Assembly (NCBI RefSeq): GCF_029478095.1
Contig: NZ_JAKOAV010000015.1
Span: forward strand, 35,332-89,019
Direction: 5' to 3'
Length of the DNA: 53,688 nucleotides
DNA from: Pelotomaculum isophthalicicum JI
GTDB taxonomy: Bacteria > Bacillota > Desulfotomaculia > Desulfotomaculales > Pelotomaculaceae
In this document: positions 35,453-43,339 of the stretch, piece by piece
Layout of the letters: the number at the start of each line of letters is the position of its first letter
How positions within the stretch are numbered: the first letter of the stretch is position 1
Translations under genes and position numbers: made by a program
The notes under the pieces: generated by a model
The model's database searches: none
Told to the model about the DNA's origin: nothing
The model's input: only the letters and a program-made list of their open reading frames with translations

Positions 35453-36418
35453 ATGGAAAAAACAACAATACCGGGATGGCTCCTGGAAAAACAGGAGCCT
35501 TTTAACGGCGATTCCGGCGGCTGCGCCTGCCTTCGCGGCAAGCCAGGCCGCCGTGGCTTTGTGGAAAAAACAATTGAATCAATAGCCCAAGTTCTGCGGG
35601 ACGAATTTTTTGCCGGACAGATAGCCGGGAACCATGGATTGCTTCAGAGTATTGATCCCCGGGTAAAGGCGCTGACCACATTATTGCTGATAATAGCAGC
35701 CAGTTTGATTCGTCATCCGTTAACACTAATCGTAATGAACTTGTGGGTTCTATTGCTGGCCAAGGTGTCCCGCGTTCCGGTAAAAATATTTTTCAAACGG
35801 GTTTGGCTGGTAGTGCCTCTTTTTACCGGTATTATCGTATTGCCTTCTATTTTTAACATTGTCTCTCCCGGTGATCCACTGCTGACATTATTTAAATCCA
35901 ACCACCAAATTCACATTGGTTCCTGGACCTTGCCCAACACCCTGACCATTACCCGTCAGGGCGTACATGGCGCTCTGGCGCTCATTCTACGCGTAGGCGC
36001 CTCTGTCTCTCTGGCCTTGATACTCACGCTGACCACCCGGTGGAATATTCTTTTAAAAGCTCTCAATATGATTTTTGTGCCACAAATCTTCATATCTGTG
36101 CTGGAGATGACTTACCGCTACATATACTTGCTGCTCCAAACCGCCGGCGAGATTTTTGTGGCCAGGCAAAGCCGCACTGTCGGTCGCGCTTCCACGAAGG
36201 AGCAAAGGCGTTTTATCGGCGGCGCAATGGGCACTCTATGGGGTAAAGCTTACAATGTCAGCGAAGAAGTGCACGCGGCAATGGTTTCACGCGGGTATAC
36301 CGGCAAGCCAAAGACGCTTGTCGCCTTTAAGACAAGAGCAATGGACTGGTTGTGGGCAGCCTTTATAGTTTTGGTAAGCCTGTTCTTCCTCGGAGGTGAC
36401 CGGATCGTTGCCAGATGA
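35453..36418 (+). CDS. cbiQ: CbiQ transmembrane (T) component of the ECF transporter
   Basis: Scaffold that couples the ATPase CbiO to CbiM. 321 residues, with a soluble N-terminal extension of about 50 residues (PGWLLEKQEPFNGDSGGCAC and more) before DPRVKALTTLLLIIAAS. About five membrane helices. The T-component coupling helix is AAMVSRGYTG near residue 280. It begins 3 bases after cbiM and overlaps the start of cbiO, indicating one operon. Confidence 0.92.
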   Translation: MEKTTIPGWLLEKQEPFNGDSGGCACLRGKPGRRGFVEKTIESIAQVLRDEFFAGQIAGNHGLLQSIDPRVKALTTLLLIIAASLIRHPLTLIVMNLWVLLLAKVSRVPVKIFFKRVWLVVPLFTGIIVLPSIFNIVSPGDPLLTLFKSNHQIHIGSWTLPNTLTITRQGVHGALALILRVGASVSLALILTLTTRWNILLKALNMIFVPQIFISVLEMTYRYIYLLLQTAGEIFVARQSRTVGRASTKEQRRFIGGAMGTLWGKAYNVSEEVHAAMVSRGYTGKPKTLVAFKTRAMDWLWAAFIVLVSLFFLGGDRIVAR

Positions 36419-37211
36419 GATATTTTTTCATTTAGATAACGTCAGCTACAATTATCCGGGCGGTGAGGAAGCGCTGTCCGGCGTCAGCATGTCTGTGAAA
36501 CAAGCGGACAAGGTAGTGCTATTAGGCGCCAACGGGTGCGGCAAGTCAACTCTTCTGAAAGTGCTAGACGGTCTTCTGTTCCCCCAACAGGGTGTAATAC
36601 ATTCTTTTGGAGAAGCGTTGAATGAGGAAAACTTAAGTAGGGAAGAGTTTTCCTTTGCCTTTAGACGGCGGGTCGGGTTTGTTTTTCAAAACTCCGAAGC
36701 GCAATTGTTTAATCCCAGTGTCTGGGAAGAAATTGCTTTCGGCCCGGTACAGATGGGATTAGATAACTCAGAGGTAGTTAAGAGAGTGGACCATGTAGTC
36801 ACCATGCTGGGCTTGGAGCATATAAAGGACCGGCCGCCCTTCAAATTAAGCGGCGGGGAAAAGAAAAAGGTAGCCATTGCCTCGGTGCTGTCCATCAATC
36901 CTGAAGTTATTCTTTTGGATGAGCCCACCGGTGGGCTTGATCCTAGAACCCAAACATGGCTTATTAATCTGATAAAGCAGCTGAACAGGGCGGGGAAAAC
37001 GTTGATTACCGCCACGCATAACCTGGATATTGTCGAAGAAATCGCTGACAGAGTGATGGTTTTTAGTGAAGATCACCGATTAGTAGCCTCCGGCACACCG
37101 GACGAAATATTAAGCAACCGGGAATTATTGCTCAAAGTGAACCTGGTGGACGAAAAATTTCACCAGCATGTGCATGGAGGCGGCCATCGTCATTATCATG
37201 CTCATAGCTAG
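36396..37211 (+). CDS. cbiO: CbiO ATP-binding component of the ECF transporter
   Basis: ABC ATPase that powers cobalt/nickel uptake. 271 residues. Walker A LLGANGCGKSTLLK, Q-loop VGFVFQNSEAQLFNPSVWE, signature KLSGGEKKKVAIAS, Walker B VILLDEPTGGLDPRT and switch His in ATHNLD are all intact. The tail is His-rich (HQHVHGGGHRHYHAHS), probably a metal-binding end, as often seen in CbiO/NikO. The start is uncertain: GTG at 36396, or TTG at 36408 behind GGAGG. Confidence 0.95.
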   Translation: MTGSLPDEIFFHLDNVSYNYPGGEEALSGVSMSVKQADKVVLLGANGCGKSTLLKVLDGLLFPQQGVIHSFGEALNEENLSREEFSFAFRRRVGFVFQNSEAQLFNPSVWEEIAFGPVQMGLDNSEVVKRVDHVVTMLGLEHIKDRPPFKLSGGEKKKVAIASVLSINPEVILLDEPTGGLDPRTQTWLINLIKQLNRAGKTLITATHNLDIVEEIADRVMVFSEDHRLVASGTPDEILSNRELLLKVNLVDEKFHQHVHGGGHRHYHAHS

Positions 37212-37518: not shown

Positions 37519-38202
37519 TTAATCATCATATGTGCAAGACAAATTCGAAAGTTTTGTGAGTAATAGGTTTATTTTTGTAAGTAAATAGGCTTGCTGCATT
37601 TCGTTTAGATATTTGTTAATTTTTTCAATAATAACATCGCTAAGTTCTTTTGAAATTTCAAATTCATTTAATAGTTTTTCCTCAATCATAGACAAACTTA
37701 ATTCACGATTGCAAACAAAAGATATAATACTATTAATAAACCTTAAAACATTACCAGCCTTTTCATGATTCTCGAAGCCTCCTTTTTCCTTATAAACATT
37801 AAATGGAATACTCTTGTAATTTTCATATAATATAATATTATTAATCACAAATTCCATAACAACATCTAGTTGCTCTGAGGACATAGTATTAACAGTTTTT
37901 GAGTCTATATATGGTCCTGCAATCGGTTTGCAATAATCGTACAGATAGTTAGCAGGTATTTTTTCAAAGCCATATTTCAGTAGTTTTTCAATAATTAAAT
38001 CCTTGTCGTCCATTTCGTAAATAATTATTTGTGTAATTTCGTTTACTAACTCTTCAAACAAATTTTGCTCATCTTTGTTTAATTCATAAAAAATGTCAAT
38101 ATTATCATCAATATAATTTAATATTTCTTTTTGTTTTGCATGTTCTAGTTCATTGAACCATTCAGCAAGAGTACTTAAATCTTTCTTTTCATCATCTACC
38201 AA
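37519..38202 (-). CDS. Unknown acidic helical protein paired with a Zn-finger/HTH regulator
   Basis: Not recognised. About 227 residues, almost all predicted helix, rich in Glu, Asp, Asn, Ile and Leu, without membrane segment, signal or Cys pattern. The start chosen is the TTG at 38202 (VDDEKKDLSTLAEWF) because GGGAGG lies 8 bases upstream; an in-frame TTG at 38226 has no site. It overlaps the HTH gene end by 11 bases, so the two are coupled. The pair is much more AT-rich than its neighbours. In related operons a YgiT/HTH protein is the antitoxin or regulator and the second gene its partner; no known toxin fold is evident here. Confidence 0.65.
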   Translation of the reverse strand: MVDDEKKDLSTLAEWFNELEHAKQKEILNYIDDNIDIFYELNKDEQNLFEELVNEITQIIIYEMDDKDLIIEKLLKYGFEKIPANYLYDYCKPIAGPYIDSKTVNTMSSEQLDVVMEFVINNIILYENYKSIPFNVYKEKGGFENHEKAGNVLRFINSIISFVCNRELSLSMIEEKLLNEFEISKELSDVIIEKINKYLNEMQQAYLLTKINLLLTKLSNLSCTYDD

Positions 38203-38947
38203 TTTTGAACCCTCCCTTTCTTTCAAATGAAGGTGATTCTAATATAGCTTCCCAAGAACTATTTGCCTCATGGGATAATTCATACTTAGCTAATACATGA
38301 GTTATTTGTGGGTTGGTAATTTCAGATTTAATAGATGACTTACTTAACTTTCTTTCGATATTATCAATGCTTTTACTTAATCCTAATATCATTAACTCAA
38401 GACGTTTAATTGCATTTGTTTCAATTGTGTCTTTACCTTTATTGGTTAAATCTTGTATATCATATTTATTCTCTTGCTCTTTGACTTTTGATTCTATTTG
38501 TGAAAATTCATTATCTGATAATTTATCTCTGTTCTGCTTAGCAATGGTTAAGAAATTCTTGGGCTGTTTTGATAATAGTATTATACTATTGTGTATAGAA
38601 TCTTGAAGTGCTCCTAATTCATATCTATTAATTGTAGATTCAGCAAACCCTAACGCTCTAGCGAAAGCTCTTTGTGATAACCCATAATATTCACGTATAA
38701 TTTTTATATCTTCAGGCATTAAAAGGCCTTTATCCTTTTTGTATTGAGTTAATGCTAAGTCAAAATGCTTTTCCTCAATAACTAAGTCACTTAGCTGAGA
38801 CCCGCAAACTGAACAATGGGGAATTTCAACATTTTTTAGAGTTATTGTTTCACCTTTTATTTCATGTACAACGTCAATTTGTTTCAAAACATATTCAACA
38901 ATTTCATCACACTGAGAGCAAAATAATTGTTTATTTTCCATATTCAT
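38192..38947 (-). CDS. MqsA/YgiT-type zinc-finger plus helix-turn-helix regulator
   Basis: 251 residues. The N-terminal double CxxC zinc finger (CSQC near residues 10-13 and CSVC near 47-50) is followed by an Xre-like helix-turn-helix (about 80-135) with YGLSQRAFARALGFAESTIN then RYELG. This is the domain order of MqsA-type antitoxins and their phage and defence-island relatives. The C-terminal 100 residues are charged and coiled. The downstream gene overlaps it. Low GC points to acquisition. Confidence 0.82.
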   Translation of the reverse strand: MNMENKQLFCSQCDEIVEYVLKQIDVVHEIKGETITLKNVEIPHCSVCGSQLSDLVIEEKHFDLALTQYKKDKGLLMPEDIKIIREYYGLSQRAFARALGFAESTINRYELGALQDSIHNSIILLSKQPKNFLTIAKQNRDKLSDNEFSQIESKVKEQENKYDIQDLTNKGKDTIETNAIKRLELMILGLSKSIDNIERKLSKSSIKSEITNPQITHVLAKYELSHEANSSWEAILESPSFERKGGFKIGR

Positions 38948-39913: not shown

Positions 39914-42274
39914 ATGAACGAGTTGAACCGTTTTATCGCCAAGTCGGAAGAATTATATGACCTTGCCGGGCAAAATTTAAAGCCTGCCATAGCCGTCATC
40001 GGTTCTTATAACTCGGGGAAATCAACTTTGCTGAACAGCTTGCTCGGGGAAGAAATAAGTCCGGTTGGCGCCGTGCCCACCACAAGCCGCCTGCTCTACT
40101 TTGATTACGCAGACTCTTTTTCAGCAAGGTACACCGGGGTCAGGGACAAATGTGTCTTTGCCAATCGCAACGCGCTCGCTTCTTTTTTATCAAGCCGTCA
40201 GCCCCAAGGCGGCCGGGTGAATATTGAGCTCCCCGCTCCTATTCTTAAAAAATGCCGCCTGATAGACACACCCGGGATAGATTCTTTCTCCCATGAATCA
40301 ATCCGCATGGCGGAACAAGCCGCTAACGAGTCGGTAAAAATAATTTACCTCTTTCACCAGCGTGGTATCGAAAATTTTAACCGTCTGTTTCTTAATAAAT
40401 TCGCGTCTACTTGGAAAAATAAAAACCTCAATGATATATCTTTCTGGCTTAACTGCAATCTGGGTAATTGTGACGGCACCTCTCTCGAAGCAACAATGGC
40501 GGTATTGAGAAAAATTTTTTTAAGCCAGGTAAGGCTAAACGCGATAAACATTTTAAACCATGAGAACATTCAAGACTTGCGCCTATTTCTGGAGGTGGAA
40601 CTGGCCAGGTACTATTTTGACAACCTGGCAAAAAATCTTAAGAAGGTAGACAACGAGATACCCGCAAAACTAAAAAAAATCACTAGCATTGCCGACGAGT
40701 CACTCTTCCTGTCCGAATTCTGGACTGTGCTGGAAACCGCGGAAAAGCTCTTCTCCGCCTATCGCACATTGAACTCCATACCACTCATTGTCAGCGAAAC
40801 GGAAGGGCTGTTATGCTCGATAAACTCGTCCAACTTGAATAAGACGGACAATAAGGCAGGCGGACATCTTTACCGGCCGCACGCCGGAGGTTTTAAAGAA
40901 GGCAAGGAACTAATTCTGGAACTATTAAATTCTTTAATACGCGAAAAAAAGTTGGACGGTTGGCTGGAGCGCCCTAAATTAAGCAAGATGGCCGCGAAAA
41001 TTAAAGCAGAACGTTTCACAGTAGTGGCTGCGGGAGGTTTTTCCACCGGCAAGTCCACTTTTTTCAACGCGTTGATGAAGGAAGAAATATTACCTACCGG
41101 AAATGGGCCGACAACTTCATCAATCACCCGCATTTCACACGGCAGAGAAAAAACAGCCACAGTGCGGCTCCCGCTCCAAGTAACCCTGCAAATACATGAA
41201 AATATTGGAAAACAAAGCCATCTCTGCGCTGATAAACTGGACATACTGGAGAATTATATAAAGAATAATGAGTCTGGTCTGGCTTACCTGGAAGCTTGCA
41301 CGGAAGATCGCTTCAGACAAGTAGATTACCAAGAAATTACGACGTTAATCAACCAAGCCAGGGAATTTTACGCCGCGGGCGCTTTTGCCCGGTCTGCGGG
41401 GAAATTGCCATTGCCCGCTGTTTATAAACCGGTTCCGGCAAAAGGCATCTCCCGCAAAAAGCTACTTCAAAAAGTTCGCTTGACTTTCCATAATGCTGGA
41501 GAGCCTGAATTCGATCTGGCAAATCCGGCTCACTTAAATAAATTCAAGGAAATTACCGGACCGGACAATGCTTTCCGGATCTCCGGGATAGATATCCGCC
41601 ACCCTTCTAAATACCTTGAGCTGACCGATTTTGTGGACACACCAGGGCTTGATTCAATTCAAAAGGATTATTTCGATGAAATAACTGATAACATCCGGCA
41701 ATGCGACGCTTACCTTGTTTTTTTAAACGCCCGGCATATTTTGAACGACATGGATAAAGAAAATTTTGAAACTGTATTTTTACCGCAAATACGCGCGAGC
41801 TTTAAACAACGGGACATGCTGGAAAAAGAATTTGCAAAAATTTACTTCGTAATTAATTTTGCCGACACCCTAACACCGTTCCAACAAGAAGCGGTAACCA
41901 ATTTTGTCCGGAAAAGCCTGAGTGCCCCTATTCAAAGCTCCCTGGCCATACCAGACCCAAAAATATTCCTGATTTCCGCCCTGCGGGGTCTCGCCGGCAA
42001 AGACCGCGGCATGGAAGTTTTACTTAAGAATCTGGAAGAAGGAATCATGCGCTTCCGCGGCAGAAATTTTTACAGAAATATTTTAGACGAACTTTATTCG
42101 ATGCTTAATGGCATTTCCCAAAAGATTAATATTGAGTTGCCCACTTTAATTCAGATTGGCCACAGGTCCGGCGCAAAGAAACAAAAGCTCTGTCAGGCAC
42201 TGGAGGTACTGCTGAAGTACCGCAGGGAGATAAAGAATATCAGAAATACTATTTATAGCCTCGGGAGGTTGTAA
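39914..42274 (+). CDS. Tandem (double-GTPase) dynamin-like protein
   Basis: 786 residues with two dynamin-type GTPase domains in one chain. Domain 1: G1 GSYNSGKST (30-38), switch Thr in AVPTTSRL, G3 DTPGID (Asp118). Domain 2: G1 GGFSTGKST (Lys380), GPTTSSITR, G3 DTPGLD (Asp575), and a degenerate G4 NFAD. In domain 1 the G4 is weak (WLNCNLG). Helical stalk-like segments follow each GTPase. No transmembrane or paddle segment is visible, unlike DynA-type tandem dynamins that bind membranes themselves. Three small genes follow within 2-12 bases or overlap it. It belongs to the broad bacterial dynamin group implicated in membrane remodelling, vesicle release or phage defence; its role here is unknown. 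Confidence 0.88.
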   Translation: MNELNRFIAKSEELYDLAGQNLKPAIAVIGSYNSGKSTLLNSLLGEEISPVGAVPTTSRLLYFDYADSFSARYTGVRDKCVFANRNALASFLSSRQPQGGRVNIELPAPILKKCRLIDTPGIDSFSHESIRMAEQAANESVKIIYLFHQRGIENFNRLFLNKFASTWKNKNLNDISFWLNCNLGNCDGTSLEATMAVLRKIFLSQVRLNAINILNHENIQDLRLFLEVELARYYFDNLAKNLKKVDNEIPAKLKKITSIADESLFLSEFWTVLETAEKLFSAYRTLNSIPLIVSETEGLLCSINSSNLNKTDNKAGGHLYRPHAGGFKEGKELILELLNSLIREKKLDGWLERPKLSKMAAKIKAERFTVVAAGGFSTGKSTFFNALMKEEILPTGNGPTTSSITRISHGREKTATVRLPLQVTLQIHENIGKQSHLCADKLDILENYIKNNESGLAYLEACTEDRFRQVDYQEITTLINQAREFYAAGAFARSAGKLPLPAVYKPVPAKGISRKKLLQKVRLTFHNAGEPEFDLANPAHLNKFKEITGPDNAFRISGIDIRHPSKYLELTDFVDTPGLDSIQKDYFDEITDNIRQCDAYLVFLNARHILNDMDKENFETVFLPQIRASFKQRDMLEKEFAKIYFVINFADTLTPFQQEAVTNFVRKSLSAPIQSSLAIPDPKIFLISALRGLAGKDRGMEVLLKNLEEGIMRFRGRNFYRNILDELYSMLNGISQKINIELPTLIQIGHRSGAKKQKLCQALEVLLKYRREIKNIRNTIYSLGRL

Positions 42275-42276
42275 AA

Positions 42277-42474
42277 ATGGAAAATGCCAGGTTACTGGAC
42301 GAGCGGTTGCGCAAGATTATCAATGAAGTAAGCGGGCATACCGGTGGGGAAATCAAAAAAAATTTGCTCCGCGAATTTGAGGTTGGTGTCAAAGCGGCAA
42401 TAGAGAACCATAGCCAGAAGGAAACTTTAAGAATACTGGCGCTGTTAAAAAACGCCATTAATAAATTTGAATAA
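42277..42474 (+). CDS. Small helical protein in the dynamin operon
   Basis: 65 residues, starting 2 bases after the dynamin stop behind GGGAGG. Highly charged and helical (LLDERLRKIINEVSGHTGGE, then KNLLREFEVGVKAAIENH), no Cys, no membrane segment. Not recognised. Tight spacing suggests it is a stoichiometric partner of the GTPase. Confidence 0.75.
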   Translation: MENARLLDERLRKIINEVSGHTGGEIKKNLLREFEVGVKAAIENHSQKETLRILALLKNAINKFE

Positions 42475-42486
42475 GGAGGAATAACT

Positions 42487-42789
42487 ATGGATTTTAAAAT
42501 TGAGGGGTTGAAGGGTGACAAAAATGGTGACGAGCTAATCGGGCAAATGTTATCAGACATCTTTACAGGCCTAAAAACTAAAATGGTTCAGCCGGTGCTG
42601 GATGAAAACCACAAAATTTCCGGCCAACTGAAGGAATTAATGACACAGGAGCAGTCGGAAATAAGCGAGCTAAAGGAAAAAATCGCGGAGTTAGACGCCC
42701 GGATCCAGCAAGTACCCTTAATCATTCTGTCATCTTTCAGGGATGCTATAAACTTGGCAGGCAGGGATACTCAAGATGGAAGAGAATAG
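42487..42789 (+). CDS. Small coiled-coil protein in the dynamin operon
   Basis: 100 residues with a strong AAGGAGG site 5 bases before the ATG. The middle (about 35-75) forms a coiled coil with heptad spacing (SGQLKELMTQEQSEISELKE and KIAELDARIQQ). No membrane segment. Its last codons overlap the next gene by 14 bases, so the two are coupled. Function unknown; an adaptor between the GTPase and the tail-anchored partner is a reasonable inference. Confidence 0.78.
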   Translation: MDFKIEGLKGDKNGDELIGQMLSDIFTGLKTKMVQPVLDENHKISGQLKELMTQEQSEISELKEKIAELDARIQQVPLIILSSFRDAINLAGRDTQDGRE

Positions 42790-43033
42790 CGTGCAAGCTG
42801 AACTGATCGATTCACTGGCGTCTACTATACAGAACAAAATAATTCTTCCCGCCGAGGAGAACACCTCTTTTTTACATTGCGCGATTGACCAGGTAAATGA
42901 AAGGATTTCTATCCTGGAAGAAACATCTTCGGCGCTGACTGCCGCCCTTAACAGAACAAAACTGGCAGTTTCGATATCTTTATTGGGAATAGCCGTATTA
43001 GCCGTTATTCAAGTCATTATTTTTTTTAGATAA
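42776..43033 (+). CDS. Tail-anchored small membrane protein in the dynamin operon
   Basis: 85 residues. A cytoplasmic helical part (coiled coil about 40-58, QVNERISILEETSSAL) is followed by one C-terminal hydrophobic helix, LAVSISLLGIAVLAVIQVII, ending FFR: a tail anchor. It is the only membrane-inserted protein encoded on this strand of the operon, so it may supply the membrane attachment that the dynamin lacks. Its TAA stop directly abuts the stop of the converging gene. Confidence 0.78.
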   Translation: MEENSVQAELIDSLASTIQNKIILPAEENTSFLHCAIDQVNERISILEETSSALTAALNRTKLAVSISLLGIAVLAVIQVIIFFR

Positions 43034-43339
43034 TCACTCTTCCTTGGGTTTTTGGCTTTTCCTCATGATAGAATATACAAAAAACGTAGCCCCGGAAATA
43101 ATCAGCACTTTAACAATGAAACCAATCGTTTCGTTTCTGAAACCGACTTTTTCTTTTCCCAGCTCTACCTGCGGGTCCATTTTTATATCAAAAAAGCTGC
43201 CTTTGTCAACTTGATACGCTAATTTTTCAAGCTTGACCATCTTCTCTTCGTGCCTGGTTATATTGGTCATATAGCTTACCACTTGGATAATGAGAAAAGC
43301 CAGGGCAAATAATATCAATAAGAAACGGGAATGATTCAT
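43034..43339 (-). CDS. Two-helix membrane protein facing the dynamin operon
   Basis: 101 residues. A hydrophobic N-terminal helix (LLILFALAFLIIQVVSYMT), a soluble middle of about 45 residues with basic and acidic stretches, and a second helix (VKVLIISGATFFVYSIM) before a charged tail. Not recognised. It follows the SLH enzyme gene by 19 bases on the same strand and shares a zero-base stop-to-stop junction with the dynamin operon; no terminator lies between. Confidence 0.72.
   Translation of the reverse strand: MNHSRFLLILFALAFLIIQVVSYMTNITRHEEKMVKLEKLAYQVDKGSFFDIKMDPQVELGKEKVGFRNETIGFIVKVLIISGATFFVYSIMRKSQKPKEE

Follow-up and report, generated by a model that had tools for sequence, protein, structure and literature searches.

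A two-headed dynamin-like protein without a trunk is encoded with three small proteins, one of them predicted to be tail-anchored, in Pelotomaculum isophthalicicum

The stretch of Pelotomaculum isophthalicicum JI DNA analyzed here (53,688 nucleotides of contig NZ_JAKOAV010000015.1, positions 35,332 to 89,019, referred to as the window) carries a four-gene operon on its plus strand, which encodes a two-headed dynamin-like protein (DLP) followed by three small proteins. The first gene, dyn (39914–42274), encodes a tandem dynamin-like GTPase of 786 amino acids (aa) without a trunk, as judged from the open reading frames, Pfam and a structural model. It is followed by the genes for S1 (42277–42474), a charged helical protein of 65 aa with the conserved N-terminus MENARxLDERLRKII, for S2 (42487–42789), a soluble coiled-coil protein of 100 aa with the motif GLKxKMVQPVLEEN, and for S3 (42776–43033), a predicted tail-anchored coiled-coil protein of 85 aa whose start codon lies within S2. 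The junctions are +2, +12 and −14 nucleotides, and the open reading frames are thus arranged as an earlier note, made from the sequence alone, had described them. Purine-rich ribosome sites precede the start of S1 (GGGAGG) and of S2 (AAGGAGG), while counts of promoter-like sites (9 versus 5.6, standard deviation 2.3, in shuffled sequences) and of terminator-like sites (5 versus 5.6) were uninformative. Feature coordinates refer to the plus strand of the window unless stated otherwise.

The gene product was compared in 39 dynamin sequences, the window protein included. They were taken from two sets of 30 and 38 loci after removal of duplicates and of seven partial sequences (L029, L030, L036, L051, L059, L068 and L075), and the closest named relative found was that of Pelotomaculum terephthalicicum JT (best segment about 81–82%). 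Dyn is a member of the dynamin superfamily: it matches the Pfam family Dynamin_N (PF00350) in two stretches with 135.9 bits against a cut-off of 27, and it possesses the P-loop and DxPG motifs. The first G domain (residues 20–215, 39971–40558), identified in the AlphaFold2 model and in 39/39 sequences, contains the P-loop GSYNSGKST with Lys36 and a DTPG motif at residues 118–121. According to model and alignment, it is followed by a helical neck and linker (residues 216–365, 40559–41008); this interhead stretch comprises 146–155 residues in all 39 sequences. The second G domain (residues 366–695, 41009–41998) has the P-loop lysine Lys380, a DTPG motif at residues 575–578 and the G4 motif NFAD; an insertion of approximately 130 aa lies between its P-loop and DTPG.

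Lys36, Lys380 and both D-x-P-G motifs were conserved in 39/39 dynamins, which agrees with the two complete-looking dynamin P-loops and the DTPG motifs seen in the earlier note; the G4 motif of head 1, however, is not canonical. In other dynamins, G4 reads N/T-K-x-D. The altered G4 of head 1 (residues 176–191, SFWLNCNLGNCDGTSL, 40439–40486), where strand 175–180 of the model ends, has Asn180 in 39/39 and Cys181 in 33/39 sequences, and the canonical Lys181 and Asp183 are found in none (0/39 each). Beyond this motif, Asp187 (38/39) and Gly188 (39/39) are conserved. The G4 of head 2 retains Asp651 in 39/39 sequences, and its first residue is Asn in 34 and Ser in 5 of them. Since the P-loop, Thr57 of switch 1 and DxPG are kept, nucleotide binding by head 1 is likely, whereas guanine reading and hydrolysis by this head appear doubtful.

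The AlphaFold2 model of dyn, for which we used the window protein together with sequences from 30 of the 38 named loci (31 sequences), shows two G domains connected by helices and ends in a hairpin. Its predicted local distance difference test score (pLDDT) was 80.2 and its predicted template modelling score (pTM) 0.53, a value at which the placement of one head relative to the other is unreliable. When compared with known structures, the second half of dyn matched truncated mitofusin-1 (5gom_A; Z 27.0, root-mean-square deviation (rmsd) 4.0, 328 residues aligned) and the Campylobacter Cj-DLP chain 5owv_B (Z 24.6, rmsd 3.3, 338 residues aligned). The modelled second half thus has the fold of the dynamin superfamily, a G domain with a helical neck. 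The fold-match tables, both for this model and for that of a longer relative described below, are filled mostly by head 2, and head 1 is barely covered.

Only 96 residues follow position 690 of the window protein, and they are modelled as a hairpin only, formed by the C-terminal neck helices 698–747 and 753–785 (42005–42268) at the place where longer relatives have a trunk. Judged by this model and by the length of the protein, window dyn has neither a stalk or trunk with a lipid-binding element nor a trunk tip. Hydropathy, measured as the best 19-residue Kyte-Doolittle mean, reached 1.06 for dyn, 0.02 for S1, 0.96 for S2 and 2.72 for S3. No membrane segment was detected in this way in any of the 39 dynamins; their maximum of 1.56 falls in an extension at the N-terminus of L031, for which the start codon is uncertain, and the C-terminal hairpin of the short form is not hydrophobic in relatives either. 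The low hydropathy and the model without trunk tip or membrane loop bear out the earlier statement that the protein lacks a membrane segment or an obvious paddle. As a control, six DLPs of the Anaerolineae loci L077, L089 and L093 reached 2.17–2.9 in windows starting at residues 476–515. In these loci, DLP genes of 587–632 aa lie side by side, every one of them encoding a strong hydrophobic segment, and S1–S3 are lacking.

S3 is the protein of the operon that carries a membrane segment. Its C-terminal segment (residues 65–83, 42968–43024, hydropathy 2.72) was found in S3 of 37/37 named loci, with 0–5 residues after the best window, and in S1 and S2 of 0/37 (L068 was left out of this count, as a contig end cuts the locus). 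S3 can therefore be regarded as a predicted tail-anchored protein with its membrane segment at the extreme C-terminus, as had been proposed in the earlier note, which placed the tail anchor on a separate protein. Basic residues ahead of the segment hint at a cytosolic N-terminus. No Pfam or NCBIfam match above cut-off was obtained for S1, S2 or S3. S2 and S3 have similar patterns (GLKxKMVQPxxEEN and STIxKKxVxPxE, respectively), which is suggestive of a resemblance between the first half of S2 and that of S3. In the PDB, S1 matched designed repeat proteins over 26 residues (best E 2.8e-5) and S2 reached E 0.13 at best; both results were read as helix composition, and the idea that S1 is a piece of a dynamin was dropped, its profile reaching an E value of only 0.2.

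The four genes occur together. In 113 genomes of the order (carrier thresholds: E ≤ 1e-40 for dyn, E ≤ 0.001 for S1–S3), each of the four was found in the identical 57 genomes (42 of the 80 better genomes), and the small genes thus accompany dyn in 57/57 carriers, as expected from the earlier note. In 56 of these 57, the four genes share a contig and a strand and follow the order dyn-S1-S2-S3; in the remaining genome, G451, they are split between contigs. In a phylum sample of 398 genomes, S1 was present in four, all of this order and the genome of the window among them, and none of S1, S2 and S3 was detected at an E value of 0.01 in 35 loci whose DLPs are more distant, some of which lie on short contigs. 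Compared with the same-genus relative L010, the ratios of nonsynonymous to synonymous substitution rates (dN/dS) were all below 1: 0.16 for dyn, 0.35 for S1, 0.09 for S2 and 0.22 for S3. In the dyn tree, sequences of one family group together, and the only match to mobile elements was to a plasmid and covered 15% of dyn, with no phage match and none of full length. The locus thus appears to be chromosomal and to follow families.

Two deviations in gene structure were observed among the relatives. In four loci of one genus (L018, L019, L020 and L027), S1 starts inside the 3′ end of dyn in another frame, with an overlap of 56–74 bases. In L030, from the single-contig genome G011, dyn consists of two overlapping frames split within the second head, with S1 and S2 intact and S3 found; this could be due to decay, a sequencing error or recoding.

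The trunk varies among the relatives. The tail after head 2 comprises 239–297 residues in 12/39 sequences (proteins of 922–1030 aa) and 75–123 residues in the other 27/39. The distance between the end of head 2 and the start of S1, for which G451 was left out as its genes are on two contigs, is likewise bimodal: it is short (42–159 residues) in 38/56 and long (219–277 residues) in 18/56 genomes. Short distances are found in the families f1 (23), f5 (7), f8 (6) and f14 (1), and long ones in f12 (2), f18 (2) and 14/15 members of f16. G454 has a long distance, yet its open frame is only 757 aa, and its trunk frame may therefore be broken. The model of the long form from Sporotomaculum (28 sequences, pLDDT 81.1) has extra helices at residues 739–774 and 856–894 and a beta-hairpin tip at 789–804, followed by the last helix. 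It aligned to the bacterial DLP structure BDLP over 408 residues for 2j68 (rmsd 6.5) and over only 326 residues for 2j69_A, so that the likeness of its trunk to that of BDLP is modest. A basic, hydrophobic trunk tip (KGFLGLSRK-like) was found in 8/12 long sequences; it is partial in L031 and missing in L032, L033 and L035. This tip may contact lipid. The longer relatives are not fusions of dyn with S1–S3 (786 plus 250 aa): they have separate S1, S2 and S3, and their extra residues model as a trunk.

On the midpoint-rooted tree of the 39 dynamin cores, the label short or long takes three changes, two of which are forced by starred branches, while one of the three rests on a single metagenome-assembled genome (L064/G449). 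Known DLPs carry a trunk, and losses are therefore likelier than gains; the trunk would have been lost two or three times. We do not use the match to truncated mitofusin as proof of this loss, because it is also the top hit of the trunk-bearing model (Z 27.3); only length and secondary structure speak for trunk loss.

The usual view is that dynamins require a trunk or stalk to contact lipid and to gain leverage. Unlike dyn, Drp1 is single-headed and has a stalk; the likeness between the two systems is one of design only, a soluble dynamin with a separate tail-anchored protein. For Drp1, tail-anchored FIS1 and MFF are named as the recruiting proteins (PMC9377713). Mff or Fis1 was not among the Pfam matches of S1–S3 at E values up to 1 (Pfam profiles only).

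Bacterial systems share other features with the operon. Like dyn, the DynA protein of Bacillus subtilis, also a firmicute, has two dynamin heads per polypeptide and is described as a fused pair (PMC8844932). Dyn differs from it in length (786 aa versus a 1187-position model), in the lack of trunk or paddle and in its three small partner genes, and it scored 84.3 bits against a cut-off of 1600 for the DynA equivalog NF052648. Cj-DLP1/Cj-DLP2 of Campylobacter (5owv, 5oxf), the top-scoring PDB sequences, also combine two unlike heads; the best-matching stretch of dyn was head 1 for 5owv_C and head 2 for 5owv_A. Together with the difference in G4, this points to a heterotypic design of dyn with two unlike heads. 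In contrast to dyn, Cj-DLP1 and Cj-DLP2 are two separate proteins with trunks, and a trunk-tip mutation in Cj-DLP2 is reported to inhibit lipid binding (PMC6104087), whereas window dyn is devoid of a lipid-binding trunk tip. The likeness to the truncated constructs of mitofusin 1 and 2 is limited to the G domain and neck of the second half of dyn; unlike dyn, mitofusins are anchored in cis, and the trunk of the truncated constructs was removed by design. The LeoABC system of enterotoxigenic Escherichia coli likewise has DLPs encoded in an operon, one of them split, and LeoC has a hydrophobic C-terminus (PMC4159319). There, LeoC and LeoB jointly make one DLP, whereas neither family nor profile matches mark S1–S3 as pieces of a dynamin; dyn scored 23.4 bits against a cut-off of 325 for the NCBIfam family of LeoA/HP0731 DLPs (NF041922). 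Finally, cyanobacterial DLPs of the KGK clade are grouped with small proteins of about 120 aa, as S1–S3 are with dyn; those small proteins have a KGK domain, unlike S1–S3, and the excerpted description does not include a tail anchor (PMC5827413). Among the listed matches in the open-licence PMC literature, none described this operon or a bacterial DLP whose tail-anchored partner is a separate protein, which is not proof of absence.

By analogy with Drp1 and Mff/Fis1 in mitochondrial division, we propose that the two-headed DLP is brought to the membrane by tail-anchored S3 together with S2 and S1, a reading to which we give an even chance. The four-gene chromosomal operon would then encode a trunkless two-headed DLP with its own membrane receptor. 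S3 would be anchored in the inner membrane and expose its coiled coil to the cytosol, S2 would pair with S3, and S1 would link the S2–S3 complex to the heads of dyn. If G domains of neighbouring or opposing complexes then dimerized, the membrane could be tethered or remodelled, perhaps in membrane maintenance, division or fusion, with recruitment separated from the motor in the same outline as in Drp1 with Mff/Fis1. More tentatively, and with less than an even chance, the operon may be the first example of a bacterial dynamin with a dedicated tail-anchored receptor complex, which shed its trunk two or three times, kept the three-protein receptor, uses one head as a non-canonical nucleotide switch and is a convergent counterpart of Drp1 with Mff/Fis1.

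Several observations weigh against recruitment of dyn by S1–S3. The small proteins are present whether the trunk is kept or not, since 18/56 relatives retain the trunk-coding stretch, and they are therefore not a simple replacement for a lost trunk; a midpoint root cannot decide in which direction the trunk changed, and the truncated-mitofusin match is shared by the trunk-bearing model. The likeness between S2 and S3 is weak (profile comparison: E 7e-4, probability 26%), that between S1 and S2 weaker in the same comparison (E 0.0046, probability 8%), and S1–S3 could act without touching the heads. Furthermore, hydropathy is no higher than 1.17–1.87 in the DLP frames of L090 and L094 (n = 4) and 1.41 in the conventional DLP that the genome of the window also encodes. 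Because the control DLPs range this widely, the scan finds strong paddles and cannot exclude weak lipid contact. Alternatively, S1–S3 could be regulators or a scaffold, with S1 and S2 controlling nucleotide exchange or oligomerization, S3 marking the site, and dyn binding lipid via an unrecognized surface of heads or neck. Trunk-bearing relatives have S1–S3 as well as, in most long sequences, the basic, hydrophobic tip, so that anchoring need not be the task of S1–S3, and DLPs without strong hydrophobicity do exist. We nevertheless consider this rather unlikely, as the window form has no trunk, its hairpin is not hydrophobic in relatives, S3 alone has a membrane segment, and the tip is not shared by all long sequences.

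The operon could also belong to a cell-envelope or sporulation machine that stabilizes division or spore septa, as Streptomyces DynA/DynB reportedly do (a point touched on in PMC6104087). Spore-formers are frequent in the order (SpoIVA in 104/113 genomes), and a Coat_F-type gene neighbours the operon in nine loci (one copy scanned); such a role is nevertheless improbable, because dyn is limited to 57/113 genomes, so that many genomes with SpoIVA lack it, and the neighbours differ between families. SpoIVA itself failed as a sporulation marker, as it does not separate carriers of dyn from non-carriers. The defence machine considered in the earlier note received slight support. An anti-phage effect is reported for B. 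subtilis DynA (PMC8844932). In a PADLOC scan of 17 window proteins, dyn matched the LeoA model with 72 bits (E 1.4e-20; no curated cut-off) and LeoBC with 34 bits. Upstream of dyn, members of the window's family have a SIR2-like gene in 10 loci and a DEAD/DSHCT helicase, which is split in some cases, in 11 loci; the copies scanned (one SIR2-like, two helicases) matched the corresponding PADLOC models. Set against this are a dyn tree that follows families, recurring housekeeping neighbours, the lack of a full-length plasmid or phage match, and a best PADLOC match among S1–S3 of only E 0.009 (S2). The strong PADLOC matches at 36396–37211 of the window come from an ABC ATPase beside CbiM and CbiQ genes and were read as shared ATPase motifs. 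A phage-defence or membrane-damage response system is thus very improbable.

If S3 is the receptor of dyn, receptor-based recruitment of a dynamin would have arisen independently in bacteria, and three conserved families without Pfam match above cut-off would gain a role. Nature has apparently carried out the trunk deletion more than once while keeping the two heads and the separate membrane partner. In such a compact system, consisting of a motor of 786 residues and three proteins of 65–100 aa, recruitment, nucleotide switching and leverage would be separable.

Several neighbours of the operon recur. HisG and rhomboid genes are found next to it in eight loci of the f8, f16 and f18 types, and HAD genes in nine loci of the f16 and f18 types. 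Recurring neighbours and a family-following tree argue for a stable chromosomal locus. A 354-aa protein (L069:7823–8884 and relatives) is strongly conserved, has a hydrophobic C-terminus and is often encoded just upstream of dyn; in f5, f8, f14 and some f1 genomes it shares a contig with dyn and lies close to it. It occurs in 51/113 genomes, some of them without dyn, and is missing from many with dyn, and hence it is not an obligate partner. The idea that it belongs to DUF155 was abandoned, as PF02582 was found in 6/113 genomes and two copies of the protein gave no Pfam match. Another conserved protein of about 234 aa, without Pfam match, is encoded near the operon in 11 loci of several families (e.g., L060:9073–9777 and L074:12731–13705, the latter 324 aa as called).

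The SIR2-like gene of the window's family lies on the opposite strand (L044, L045, L046, L047, L048, L050, L052, L053, L054 and L055) and matches PF13289 in the one copy scanned; the helicase gene is mostly located farther upstream of it, perhaps as a small defence module of its own. In the window, a gene for an MqsA-type antitoxin-like regulator (TIGR03830 above cut-off) overlaps a gene for a 235-aa protein without family match above cut-off (37519–38947, minus strand), and the two possibly form a toxin-antitoxin-like pair. Elsewhere in the window's genome, on contig 31, a conventional DLP pair is encoded (L116:4405–8692; its second frame stays open over 342 aa only), which gives this genome two DLP systems. 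Directly abutting S3, and convergent with it, lies a minus-strand gene for a 101-aa protein with hydrophobic stretches (43034–43339). The earlier note had let the locus run to 43339; the operon is contained in that span, which also takes in this opposite-strand gene. We treat this gene as separate from the system. Counting the window, 16 loci have it beside the operon, and all of them belong to the window's family.

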